This document shows positions 47,598 through 52,492 of a stretch of 64,000 nucleotides of DNA, piece by piece. The notes below the pieces were generated by a model. That model was not told the DNA's origin. It made no database searches and was given only the letters and a program-made list of their open reading frames with translations. Numbering within the stretch: position 1 is the first letter of the stretch; every line of letters begins with the position of its first letter. The translations under genes were made by a program, and so were the position numbers. The stretch spans positions 1 to 64,000 of the forward strand of contig NZ_MJUZ01000007.1 in NCBI RefSeq assembly GCF_002237645.1, given 5' to 3'. Source of the stretch: Desulfovibrio sp. MES5. Its GTDB lineage: Bacteria > Desulfobacterota > Desulfovibrionia > Desulfovibrionales > Desulfovibrionaceae.

Positions 47598-47718
47598 AGG
47601 CCTCAGGCTGCTCTTGATGCCAACACCTTGAAAACAATGATGCAAAGCTCGCGCCATCTCACGGGCTGCTTTGTTTTTGGTTGCGCAACCTCTGGCTATT
47701 GCATAATTTTTGCCACTA

Positions 47719-47734
47719 TGGCACATTACTTGTA
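47719..47734 (+). promoter_or_regulatory. Sigma-54-like promoter candidate upstream of rpoN
   Basis: TGGCACATTACTTGTA has the -24 GG and a 10-bp spacing to GT in place of the -12 GC. It lies about 43 bp before the rpoN start codon. One consensus position is wrong, so it could be chance or a weak autoregulatory site. Confidence 0.3.
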
Positions 47735-47776
47735 AATAAGATTTTTTCTGCTGACCTTTCAAGACGGAACAGGCTC

Positions 47777-49201
47777 ATGGCACTGGAACTTCGACAGCAA
47801 CTAAAACTGACTCAGCAGCTCGTGATGACCCCGCAATTGCAGCAGGCCATCAAGCTGCTCCAGCTCTCACGCATGGAGCTTCTCGAGACTGTGCAGCAGG
47901 AAATGCTGGACAATCCTTTTCTTGAAGAATCCCAGGGCGATGACATTTCGCCGGATCAAGGGGAAGACAGGCGGGAAAAAGCCGCCGAAGAGGTGTACGA
48001 TCAAGACCTGGCCAAGGATGCCGACTGGGAGGATTACCTGGGAGAGTTCGCCAGCACTCCCCGTCTTGTGCAGCCGCGCGAGTTTGAGGTTGCCGAAGAT
48101 ATTTCGCCCCTCGAAGCGCGCTACTCGGCCAAGCCCACCCTTGAAGGGCACCTGCTGTGGCAGTTGCGCCTTTCCTCCCTCACCGAACCGCAAAAAGACA
48201 TAGGCGAAGTTATCATCGGCAACCTTTCTTCAGCTGGGTATCTGCATGCCAGCCTGGAAGAAATCGCGCAGATGACGGAATCTGATCCGGCAGAAGTTCA
48301 GGTTGTGCTTGAAAAGGTACAGATGTTCGACCCCGTGGGCGTAGCCGCCCGCGATGCCCGCGAATGCCTGCTTGTACAGATAAAAAACCTGAAGTATGAC
48401 CGCGACCCCATATTGCTTGAGCTGGTGCGCTCGCATCTGGAAGACCTTGAAGCCAAGCGCTACAAGCCCCTGCTGCGCAAATTCAAGCTGGATATGGAGG
48501 AACTGAAAGAATACCTGGACATCATCCAGAGTCTTGACCCCCTGCCCGGAGCCAGCTTTGGCGGTGGCGAACCGACCTATGTGAGCCCTGATGTTTTTGT
48601 GTACAAAATGGGTGATGAGTTCATCATTCTGCTCAACGAAGACGGCTTGCCGCAGTTGCAGCTTTCCAACCTGAGCCAGATGGACATGAAAGGGTCCTCT
48701 GATAAAGAAAAAGAATACTGTACAGAGAAAATGCGCTCGGCCAGCTGGCTCATCAAGAGCCTCTATCAGCGCCAGCGCACCCTGTACAAGGTGATGGAAA
48801 GCATCGTACGGCACCAGCAGCCCTTTTTTGAGGATGGCGTGACCCGTCTGGCTCCCCTTATTCTCAAGGACATTGCTGATGACATCAATATGCATGAATC
48901 CACGGTAAGCCGCATTACCACAAACAAGTATGTGGCAACGCCGCACGGCATTTTTGAGCTTAAATTTTTCTTCAATAGCGGGCTGGAACTCGATGACGGC
49001 AGCCAGGTAGGCTCTGAGAGCGTTAAGGCCCTCATAAAGAAATTCATTGCTGACGAAGACAGCAGGTCGCCCCTGAGTGATGAGCGCATCGGCGAAATGC
49101 TTAAAGAGCACCTCAAGGTCAACATTGCACGGCGCACAGTGGCCAAGTACCGCACCGCCCTTGATATTCCGTCATCGTCAAGACGCAAGGAACATTTCTG
49201 A
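47777..49201 (+). CDS. rpoN: RNA polymerase sigma-54 factor
   Basis: 474 residues from the ATG at 47777. Region I is Gln/Leu-rich (LELRQQLKLTQQLVMTPQLQ, then AIKLLQLSRMELLETVQQEM), binding core polymerase and activators. An acidic region II follows, then the DNA-binding part with the helix–turn–helix and the RpoN box ARRTVAKYR near the C-terminus. It directs transcription of genes with -24/-12 promoters that require enhancer-binding ATPases. The frame extends to 47681 upstream but lacks a ribosome site there. It heads the rpoN–hpf–rapZ–PTS cluster. Confidence 0.96.
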   Translation: MALELRQQLKLTQQLVMTPQLQQAIKLLQLSRMELLETVQQEMLDNPFLEESQGDDISPDQGEDRREKAAEEVYDQDLAKDADWEDYLGEFASTPRLVQPREFEVAEDISPLEARYSAKPTLEGHLLWQLRLSSLTEPQKDIGEVIIGNLSSAGYLHASLEEIAQMTESDPAEVQVVLEKVQMFDPVGVAARDARECLLVQIKNLKYDRDPILLELVRSHLEDLEAKRYKPLLRKFKLDMEELKEYLDIIQSLDPLPGASFGGGEPTYVSPDVFVYKMGDEFIILLNEDGLPQLQLSNLSQMDMKGSSDKEKEYCTEKMRSASWLIKSLYQRQRTLYKVMESIVRHQQPFFEDGVTRLAPLILKDIADDINMHESTVSRITTNKYVATPHGIFELKFFFNSGLELDDGSQVGSESVKALIKKFIADEDSRSPLSDERIGEMLKEHLKVNIARRTVAKYRTALDIPSSSRRKEHF

Positions 49202-49346: not shown

Positions 49347-49886
49347 ATGAACATCTCTTTTGCCTTCAAAAACTTTGAAGCCTCCGACCATCTTAAAAAG
49401 TATGCCCGACGCCGCATGGAAAAGCTGGGGCGTTTCTTCGGCAAGTCTGCCGGTCTTGAGGTAAGCGTCGTGCTTACCGTAGACAAATTTCGCCATCGCT
49501 GCGAAGTGACGGTTGTTGGCGAAGGTTTGCATATTAACGCAACGGAACAGACTTCAGATATGTACGCCGCCATTGACCTTGTGACAGACAAGGTTGAGGC
49601 GCAGATCAAGCGCCAGGTTTCGCGGGTCAAGACGCAACGCCGTAAGGCACGTTCCGCCGATGTCGACGTCTTTACCTATAACCTTGATGCAGACGCTGAA
49701 GTGGCGCAACCGGTTGAAGGCACTGACCGCCTCGCAACCAAACCGCTGCACCTTGACGAAGCGCTTATGCAGCTTGATTCCATTGGCAGTGAGTTCTTAG
49801 TGTTTTTCAACGCCGAAAATGGCCGCATCAACGTGGTGTACCGCACACGCACGAGCAGCTACGCGCTGATTGACCCCGTCTTATAA
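49347..49886 (+). CDS. hpf: Ribosome hibernation promoting factor, long form
   Basis: 179 residues, the length of long HPF. The N-terminal S30AE domain (ISFAFKNFEASDHLKKYARR, EGLHINATEQTSDMYAAIDL) binds the 30S subunit and blocks the decoding centre. The C-terminal domain (LDEALMQLDSIGSEFLVFFN to INVVYRTRTSSYALIDP) drives 100S dimer formation. GGAGG lies six bases before the ATG. Its position after rpoN is the standard arrangement. Confidence 0.95.
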   Translation: MNISFAFKNFEASDHLKKYARRRMEKLGRFFGKSAGLEVSVVLTVDKFRHRCEVTVVGEGLHINATEQTSDMYAAIDLVTDKVEAQIKRQVSRVKTQRRKARSADVDVFTYNLDADAEVAQPVEGTDRLATKPLHLDEALMQLDSIGSEFLVFFNAENGRINVVYRTRTSSYALIDPVL

Positions 49887-49895
49887 TTACGCCTG

Positions 49896-49927
49896 TTCCC
49901 GGCCGTCTGATGTCAGGCGGCCGGGAA
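49896..49927. terminator. Stem-loop between hpf and rapZ
   Basis: TTCCCGGCCG (49896–49905) pairs with CGGCCGGGAA (49918–49927). There is no T-run, so partial termination or RNA processing is more likely than full termination within this gene cluster. Confidence 0.5.
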
Positions 49928-49944
49928 GCACAGCAGGGGGAATC

Positions 49945-50874
49945 ATGACTGCCACCACCAAGCAGCCACAAAAAACACAGGCTGCGAACACTGCAGCCGA
50001 ACTGCCGGTAGCCGTGTGTATTGTCACCGGCCTTTCCGGCGCGGGCAAAAGTACGGCCCTGAAAGTATTTGAAGATATGGGCCACTTTGTGGTGGACGGG
50101 TTGCCGGCAAGCCTGGCCCCCGAAATGGTAAGCATGATGTCTCGCCCTTCCATGAGCCATTTCAAGGGAATCGCCCTTGGCATGGACCTGCGCCAGAGCA
50201 ACTTTCTGGATGAGATCAATGAAGCGCTGTCTGATCTCACCGCCCAGAACATCCGCCCCATGCTCTTGTTTCTGGAATGCAACGTACAGGAGCTGCTGCG
50301 CCGTTACGCCACCACGCGCCGCCCGCACCCCCTTGAACGCGAGGGCATGGGGCTTGAAACAGCGCTGCTTTCCGAGCGCAACAGCCTGCGCCCTTTGCGG
50401 GAAATGGCCGACCTTGTTGTCGATACCTCCCGCTTCTCCATTCATGATCTGCGCCGGGCCATTCAAAAGCGCTGGAGCGACAGCAAAAGCAAGCTTCGGG
50501 CCATCAAGGTCAATGTTATTTCCTTTGGCTTCAAGTATGGCGTCCCGCGTGAGGCCGATTTTGTGTTTGACTTGCGCTTTCTTACCAATCCATACTTTGT
50601 TGAAGAACTGCGCCCCCTGAGCGGCAAGGACAAGGCCGTTGCGCAATATGTTTTTGAGCAGCCCACTGCGCGCGAATTTCGCACAAAACTTATGGACCTG
50701 TTGCTGTTCATGCTGCCGCTTATGGAAACTGAAGGCCGCTACCGCGTAACCATTGCCGTTGGCTGCACTGGCGGCCGCCACCGCTCTGTGGCCATGGCCG
50801 AAGAAATCACGCAGGCCCTGAAGCAGGCAGACTACCCCACGACTCTGGAACACCGACATCTTGAACTTGGCTAG
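49945..50874 (+). CDS. rapZ: RNase adapter protein RapZ (nucleotide-binding)
   Basis: 309 residues from the ATG at 49945, with AGGGGGA five bases upstream; the frame extends to 49870 within hpf but is not used. Walker A GLSGAGKST (29–37), FVVDGLP, and the C-terminal GCTGGRHRSVAMAE are signatures of RapZ/YvcJ. In E. coli it presents small RNAs to RNase E to control glucosamine-6-P synthase; other species use it differently. In many proteobacteria ptsN lies between hpf and rapZ; here it is missing and a mannose-type PTS follows instead. Confidence 0.94.
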   Translation: MTATTKQPQKTQAANTAAELPVAVCIVTGLSGAGKSTALKVFEDMGHFVVDGLPASLAPEMVSMMSRPSMSHFKGIALGMDLRQSNFLDEINEALSDLTAQNIRPMLLFLECNVQELLRRYATTRRPHPLEREGMGLETALLSERNSLRPLREMADLVVDTSRFSIHDLRRAIQKRWSDSKSKLRAIKVNVISFGFKYGVPREADFVFDLRFLTNPYFVEELRPLSGKDKAVAQYVFEQPTAREFRTKLMDLLLFMLPLMETEGRYRVTIAVGCTGGRHRSVAMAEEITQALKQADYPTTLEHRHLELG

Positions 50875-50908: not shown

Positions 50909-51352
50909 ATGACGGAAGAAAGCAAGAAGACACAGGTAGGGATTATTGTTGTCTCGCATGCCGACTATGGCTCGGCCATGCTGCGCACAGCCGAATTCAT
51001 CCTCGGCCCGCAAAGCGACTGTAGCTCCATCAGTGTGGACGTTGCCCACGAAGTTTCTGAAACGGTACGCCGCCTTACCGATGCCGCGCAGCGGCTGGAC
51101 AAGGGCGCGGGGGTCATTATCCTCACCGACATGTTTGGCGGCACGCCAACAAACCTCGCCCTCGCCCTGCTCGCCACCCACAAGGTGGAAGTGGTGACGG
51201 GCGCGAATCTGCCCATGCTGCTCAAGGTCTTTTCCTCCCGTGAAAAAAGCCTGGAAGAGCTGGCGCAGCTTGCTGGCGAGGCAGGCTCCAAAGGCATTGT
51301 TGTCGCAGGAAATATGCTGCGCAACAAAACACGGGCCAAAAACGACGGCTAA
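50909..51352 (+). CDS. PTS EIIA component, mannose family
   Basis: 147 residues with the EIIA-Man fold. The phospho-acceptor His17 lies in VVSHADYGSAML, and TDMFGGTPTNLAL is the conserved second loop. It receives phosphate from HPr and passes it to EIIB. GAGGAATGCC precedes the ATG. The gene lies 34 bp after rapZ and 3 bp before the EIIB gene, so the PTS components are co-transcribed. Because the EIIC gene is damaged and no EIID is present here, the phosphorelay may serve regulation rather than sugar uptake. Confidence 0.92.
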   Translation: MTEESKKTQVGIIVVSHADYGSAMLRTAEFILGPQSDCSSISVDVAHEVSETVRRLTDAAQRLDKGAGVIILTDMFGGTPTNLALALLATHKVEVVTGANLPMLLKVFSSREKSLEELAQLAGEAGSKGIVVAGNMLRNKTRAKNDG

Positions 51353-51355
51353 TGT

Positions 51356-51814
51356 ATGTGGTTTCGTGTGGACAATCGCCTGGTGCATGGGCAGGTCATT
51401 GAAGCGTGGTTGCCCTACACGGGCGCCAGGCATCTGATTGTCGCCAATGACGAACTGGCGGCTGACGCCTTGCGGCAGCAGATAATCGAACTGGCCGTGC
51501 CGCAGCGCATCCTCACGCACTTTATCCCTGTACACGATCTGGCCATAACGCTGGACGCCTGCGGCGAAGATTGTTTTGTACTTTTTGGGAATTGCCAGGA
51601 CGCACGCCGTGCGAGCAATGCGGGCATCATTATGGAAACTCTCAATATCGGCAACCTGCATTACGGCCCTGAAAAAATGCAAATCCTTCCTCATGTGGCG
51701 CTATCCGCCGAAGACAGGGAAGACCTGCGCTCTATCCAGCAGCACCTAGTGCTCCTTGATTTTCGCAGTGTCCCCACAGAAACCGTAAGGGGTCCCCATG
51801 AGCAACTTATATGA
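51356..51814 (+). CDS. PTS EIIB component, mannose/sorbose family
   Basis: 152 residues. The phosphorylated His11 lies in the N-terminal signature FRVDNRLVHGQVIEAWLP, near the start as in the family. ANDELAADALRQQIIELAVP and TLNIGNLHYG are typical. It would pass phosphate to sugar in an intact permease. The ATG follows the EIIA stop by 3 bp, and the gene overlaps the EIIC start by 16 bp. Confidence 0.92.
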   Translation: MWFRVDNRLVHGQVIEAWLPYTGARHLIVANDELAADALRQQIIELAVPQRILTHFIPVHDLAITLDACGEDCFVLFGNCQDARRASNAGIIMETLNIGNLHYGPEKMQILPHVALSAEDREDLRSIQQHLVLLDFRSVPTETVRGPHEQLI

Positions 51815-52492
51815 AATGATGGCAACCGGGGCGCCTTACGCTTTTTTTTTGCCCTGGCTGGCGCGGCCCGCTCATCCTGCATTATTGGCATTGTCGACCG
51901 GCCCATCTGCCTTGCGCTCATAGCCGGAGCCGCCACTTCTGACTGGAGCCTGGCCCTGCCGCTGGGCATTATTTTTGAGCTTCTATGGCTGGACGCCCTT
52001 GAACTTGGCAGCGTCGTGCCACCCTACGGCAGCCTGAGCTTTTTACTACTTTTTCCCATATGCAGGCACTTTGACCTTGTGGAACCGGGTCGCCTGCTCA
52101 TCCCCCTCACTCTTTGCATGCTTGCGGCTTACGCAGCGGCCTATGGCGAACACCGGCAGCGCATCAGCCAAAATCCTATGGTTGACAAGGTGGAAGCCTG
52201 GTGTGCGGGCAACCCCAAAGGGCTCGCGCCCGGCACGGCACTACTGCTGTCCTCTCTCTACAGGAGCCTGTGGCAGATAACCCTATACTGCCTTTGCTTC
52301 ATCCTGATCTTCAGTCTCGTGGACACGCTGCACAACAGACAAGCTCTGCCCGCCCTGCGAGCGGTCACGTGGTCTGCCCTTTATGTGGCCGCCCTGATGG
52401 GAGCGGTGCTTTCGTTGCGCACACGCCAGGCATATGCGGTTCTCACGGGCAGCCTGGGAGTGTTGGCCATGCTTATCTGGATTGACGGCTAA
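51799..52492 (+). pseudogene. PTS EIIC component, mannose/sorbose family, frame broken at a T9 tract
   Basis: The ATG at 51799 (AGGGG upstream) opens MSNLYEMMATGAPYAFF and then leaves the family frame at a run of nine T (51842–51850). Reading one more T restores a continuous membrane protein: ALAGAARSSCIIGIVDRPIC, WSLALPLGIIFELLWLDALE, VVPPYGSLSFLLLFPIC, ending ...LAMLIWIDG at 52492. About 231 residues would result, with six or so membrane helices, as in EIIC-Sor. The break may be a homopolymer sequencing error, an inactivating mutation, phase variation, or transcriptional slippage on the T-run. No EIID gene follows. Confidence 0.8.

Follow-up and report, generated by a model that had tools for sequence, protein, structure and literature searches.

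The EIIC gene of a mannose/sorbose-family PTS in Desulfovibrio sp. MES5 raises the question of how a single protein can be obtained from two reading frames. The window (the whole stretch of 64,000 nucleotides that was analysed) carries an ATG at 51798 from which the zero frame reads MSNLYEMMATGAPYAFFLPWLAR... and terminates at a TAG at 51921–51923, whereas the body of EIIC, of 213 amino acids, lies in the −1 frame, which is open from 51851 to a TAA at 52490–52492. The switch at a run of nine T described in an earlier note was thus confirmed (Table 1). The note had also claimed that one added T restores the frame, and this holds as well. When the tract is read as ten U, both parts fuse as ...GAPYAFFFALAGAARSS..., and loci of relatives such as L055, L097 and L103 run in frame from the ATG straight into the EIIC body, which supports the joined product. 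As the break has been kept in almost all related species sampled, it looks like deliberate expression control rather than an error or a dead gene, and EIIC is probably expressed by programmed transcriptional slippage, in which some mRNA would carry U10 in place of U9.

Table 1. Features of the EIIC locus and of neighbouring genes in the window.
Feature	Position	Strand	Basis or remark
Slippery tract, nine T (U9 in mRNA)	51842..51850	+	Present without a variant base in 145 of the 160 EIIC loci analysed
Start of EIIC in the zero frame: ATG, first transmembrane stretch and tract, then a tail that is out of frame and ends at TAG; 41 aa without slippage	51798..51923	+	Sequence; substitutions 5′ of the tract show the period-3 pattern of the zero frame
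EIIC main part, −1 frame, mannose/sorbose-family PTS EIIC	51851..52492	+	Profile matches; purifying selection in the −1 frame
PTS EIIB (PTSIIB_sorb), TGA stop overlaps the EIIC 5′ end	51356..51814	+	Pfam
PTS EIIA (EIIA-man)	50909..51352	+	Pfam
RapZ-like gene	49870..50874	+	Putative, from sequence
RpoN (sigma-54)-like gene	47681..49201	+	Putative, from sequence

Identity of the gene and its two coding frames

The EIIC fragment of the window, searched alone, gave no Pfam match at E 0.001. A relative (L056) matched EII-Sor (PF03609) with 45.3 bits (cut-off 26.3), and a profile built from 28 relatives matched solved mannose EIIC chains, the best being that of E. coli (6k1h, E 1.2e-5), which it resembles over positions 18–169. 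EIIA and EIIB were identified by Pfam in the window, and the stop codon of EIIB lies inside the 5′ end of EIIC, with EIIB being found upstream in all 145 loci in which the frame is broken. Further upstream are two genes which, from their sequences, are putatively RapZ-like and RpoN (sigma-54)-like. EIID and HPr were matched by Pfam elsewhere in the genome, where an ORF adjoining HPr is, from its sequence, presumably EI. With EIIA, EIIB, EIID, HPr and EI, the rest of the PTS is present in this genome. In D. vulgaris, the fitness of PtsI (DVU0829) and of a putative EIIA (DVU1632) has been reported to be correlated (r 0.89), and the EIIA and PtsI genes show common defects on alternative nitrogen sources (PMC10102598). 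The EIIA of D. vulgaris has also been described as grouping with those of rpoN gene clusters, in a text that nowhere uses the term "frameshift".

The coding state of either side of the tract was assessed by the periodicity of substitutions over 195 related pairs, with the counts from these pairs not being independent. Within the 26 bases before the tract, 477 differences fell at zero-frame third positions against 330 and 165 at the other two, while after the tract 1038 fell at third positions of the −1 frame against 302 and 146. This shift of the third-position bias from the zero frame to the −1 frame shows that the frame under selection switches at the tract. The −1 frame of the EIIC body is under purifying selection, and the part that lies beyond the frame switch is conserved coding sequence. 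The broken loci were also examined for a truncated product shared between species, and none was found, as the zero frame ends at any point between 4 and 66 codons past the tract. As its length is not conserved, the unslipped peptide probably has no function.

Conservation of the tract in the Desulfovibrionales

An EIIC match was found in 112 of the 149 relatives searched, in 48 of 79 within the genus and in 252 of 348 genomes of the order. From these 252 genomes, 160 EIIC loci were analysed, one per species; L031–L033 were left out because their contigs, judged by length, duplicate those of L036, L023 and L038, and further EIIC matches in one genome (G126) lie outside this set. Many of the genomes sampled are drafts, and the conservation counts compare species. 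In 145 of the 160 loci, covering 39 genera and including all 22 of the single-contig genomes that were picked out, the tract sits at the same position, is exactly nine T long and follows a start codon that stands in the same −1 relation to the EIIC body. Retention on this scale is beyond chance. Two loci are cut by a contig end, and in the 158 with a readable 5′ end the tract was nine long in 146 and ten long in only two. Of the 13 exceptions, one has a T8 in another frame, and the others are in frame, with T10 in two, T9 in one, T8 in two and no tract in seven, which indicates that EIIC can work without this arrangement.

Several individual loci should be mentioned here. The genus of the window holds two T10 tracts and one T8 (L022, L037 and L043), and the latter (L043, genome G057), its sole T8, has the third frame relation and is either a real variant or a sequence error. 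L074, the T9 locus in frame, has GCA before the tract where its relatives L085 and L136 have GC, and so its frame seems to have been restored by a base other than T. L098, from an incomplete genome (G185), has its T9 in a different codon phase with the start codon still in the −1 relation; it also has an alternative in-frame TTG far upstream, and its place among the 145 is unsure. Just 3′ of the tract (window 51851), 142 of the 145 broken loci carry a G, which may reflect codon constraint or be part of a signal.

None of the nine T bases varies over the 145 loci. Elsewhere in the same EIIC genes phenylalanine is encoded by TTT 1059 times and by TTC 978 times (48% of 2037 codons), and third positions are on average 71% G or C. 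None of the 22 other FFF stretches of these genes is TTTTTTTTT (nine T), and TTTTTT is used for the conserved FFEL motif in only 25 of 80 cases. The chance of TTT TTT TTT in all 39 genera would be about 10^-44 were the genera independent, a figure which overstates the surprise as they are not.

The genome of the window contains 24 other tracts of at least nine T, which were judged from the ORF table with six being translated, and none of them was a clear EIIC-like case. One tract (L187, G000:C2:99755-99763, minus strand) lies where an open frame resembling a membrane protein begins, FFFPILNTGSTLLMLHRLTPDEQ...; an ATG is nearby in another frame, and the tract is possibly a second slippage site. 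A ten-T run (L192, G000:C10:20615-20624) was also noted close upstream of what is presumably pyrB (aspartate carbamoyltransferase), and could be a site of reiterative transcription.

Outside the order, 20 of 20 EIIC genes from elsewhere in the phylum are tractless, with a longest T run of six, and have their start codon in frame, in contrast to the broken arrangement of the Desulfovibrionales. An EIIC tree was constructed from 113 of 178 rows, with broken rows limited to 10 for the genus of the window and three for others and with L043 scored as broken. The broken and in-frame states require 10 changes on this tree, six of which are forced by the starred branches alone. Most simply, the arrangement would have been gained once at the base of the order and lost about nine times, and some of these losses (the T10 tracts of two draft genomes) could be sequence errors.

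Proposed transcriptional slippage and its alternatives

In the proposed mechanism, RNA polymerase would copy the nine T and, on a fraction of transcripts, the U-rich RNA–DNA hybrid would realign with one U being added. Only the ten-U mRNA would link the start codon and the first transmembrane stretch to the remainder of EIIC, the unslipped mRNA giving a short truncated peptide, and although one transcript serves all three, EIIC would be produced in smaller amounts than EIIA and EIIB. One more T would restore the frame, yet T10 occurs in just two of the 158 loci, and reduced EIIC relative to EIIA and EIIB therefore appears to be favoured. According to Baranov et al. (2005; PMC1088944), a homopolymer of nine whose length is conserved among homologs is very likely to reflect purposeful transcriptional slippage, and in many bacterial genomes it is at runs of nine that selection against slippage begins to show. 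The tract described here is such a homopolymer of at least nine with a conserved length.

The main rival is programmed −1 ribosomal frameshifting, by which the ribosome would slip back one base on U_UUU_UUU (or U_UUU_UUG) within the tract and an mRNA keeping nine U would yield the same protein. Slippery heptamers of the form X_XXY_YYZ do occur in the right phase within the tract, the conserved break and the two coding frames fit this reading equally well, and a longer U run could increase ribosomal slippage too. Seven U would suffice for it, however, and yet all nine are invariant; a C for the ninth T (TTT to TTC in the last codon) would be silent in EIIC and would keep the heptamer T_TTT_TTT, yet was never found, as would be expected if all nine U are required. 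Conserved structure was sought in 50 rows (39 representing one genus each and 11 from the genus of the window, with L001 in both), and neither a conserved downstream hairpin nor an upstream terminator hairpin was found. Downstream folding did not go beyond codon-shuffled controls (mean z −0.23, with z < −2 in one of the 50 rows), and a conserved sequence resembling a ribosome-binding site before the tract was not apparent by eye. Weak bacterial −1 frameshift sites can lack a downstream stimulatory structure. The invariance and the missing structure favour polymerase over ribosome, which leaves ribosomal frameshifting as an unlikely source of EIIC, though one with an appreciable chance. That slippage occurs, and that it is transcriptional rather than ribosomal, is inferred, as is its efficiency.

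Replicative phase variation, with DNA populations switching between T9 (off) and T10 (on), had been raised by the earlier note next to slippage; T runs can alter their length during replication, and the two T10 tracts and one T8 tract of the genus would agree with it. Contingency loci have tracts of variable length which are in frame in many isolates, and such variation in length between related genomes was not found when species were compared: the tract is of exactly nine T in 146 of 158 loci and is not scattered around this length. Slippage at the T run is supported, and phase variation is highly improbable. The same note had allowed for a sequencing indel, and a decaying pseudogene was considered with it. 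Homopolymers are error-prone and the genome of the window is a draft of 52 contigs, but the same break recurs in the 145 loci, each from a different species, and in every one of the 22 single-contig genomes, and the −1 frame is under purifying selection. An indel or pseudogene is thus refuted, short of a bias common to all sequencing platforms, and is the least credible of the explanations. Finally, EIIC production might need no slippage at all, with ribosomes either reading past the EIIB stop or starting inside the −1 frame. In the window the EIIB frame is indeed the −1 frame of EIIC, but EIIB and the EIIC body share a frame in only 63 of the 145 loci, with EIIB in the other two frames in 68 and 14, and stop read-through was ruled out as a general route on this count. 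As to an internal start, the codon after the tract is not a conserved start (GCC in 69, GTC in 34 and GTG in 13 of 145) and the first membrane stretch would be lost. Production of EIIC by either of these routes is extremely improbable.

If EIIC is expressed by transcriptional slippage, the site may act as a sensor, with the share of U10 varying with nucleotide pools (UTP relative to the GTP that is required once the tract has been copied), and EIIC and sugar uptake would then be set by nucleotide and nitrogen status. This is a speculative extension and a rather doubtful one, suggested by the G that follows the tract, by the rpoN-like gene with which the operon begins and by the nitrogen defects of D. 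vulgaris EIIA and PtsI (PMC10102598).

Relation to known slippage genes and significance

The closest model is mxiE of Shigella flexneri, in which an added U joins two overlapping frames to give a longer functional product (PMC1088944) with a reported slippage efficiency of 20–30% (PMC4256274). Both cases would involve the addition of one U at a U run; mxiE, however, encodes a plasmid-borne activator of type III secretion, whereas EIIC is a chromosomal membrane subunit of a sugar PTS whose site is kept across an order. In dnaX of Thermus thermophilus, a cellular gene, the polymerase slips at a run of nine A (PMC1088944), but this run lies late in the gene and slippage leads to a shorter product, while the T run of EIIC is near the start and slippage would lead to the full product. 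Poly-A slippage of 15–25% restores or alters the frame in tssM1 of Citrobacter rodentium and tssM3 of Yersinia (PMC4256274); the tssM1 run has eleven A and is found in very few species, in contrast to the T9 of 145 loci in 39 genera. In a 2005 survey of bacterial genomes insertion sequences were the largest group using transcriptional slippage (PMC1088944), and other cases in the sources used here are secretion genes and dnaX (PMC1088944, PMC4256274).

A description of transcriptional slippage in Desulfovibrio was not found in the titles and abstract openings of the literature searched. The terms Desulfovibrio, PTS and phosphotransferase are all absent from the main text of the survey of frameshifts by Antonov et al. 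(PMC3711429). Automatic annotation will probably overlook this EIIC or mark it as a pseudogene. If the proposed slippage is true, an order-wide and nearly invariant U9 in a metabolic transporter would represent a long-lived natural test of why a frameshift persists even though one T would end it.
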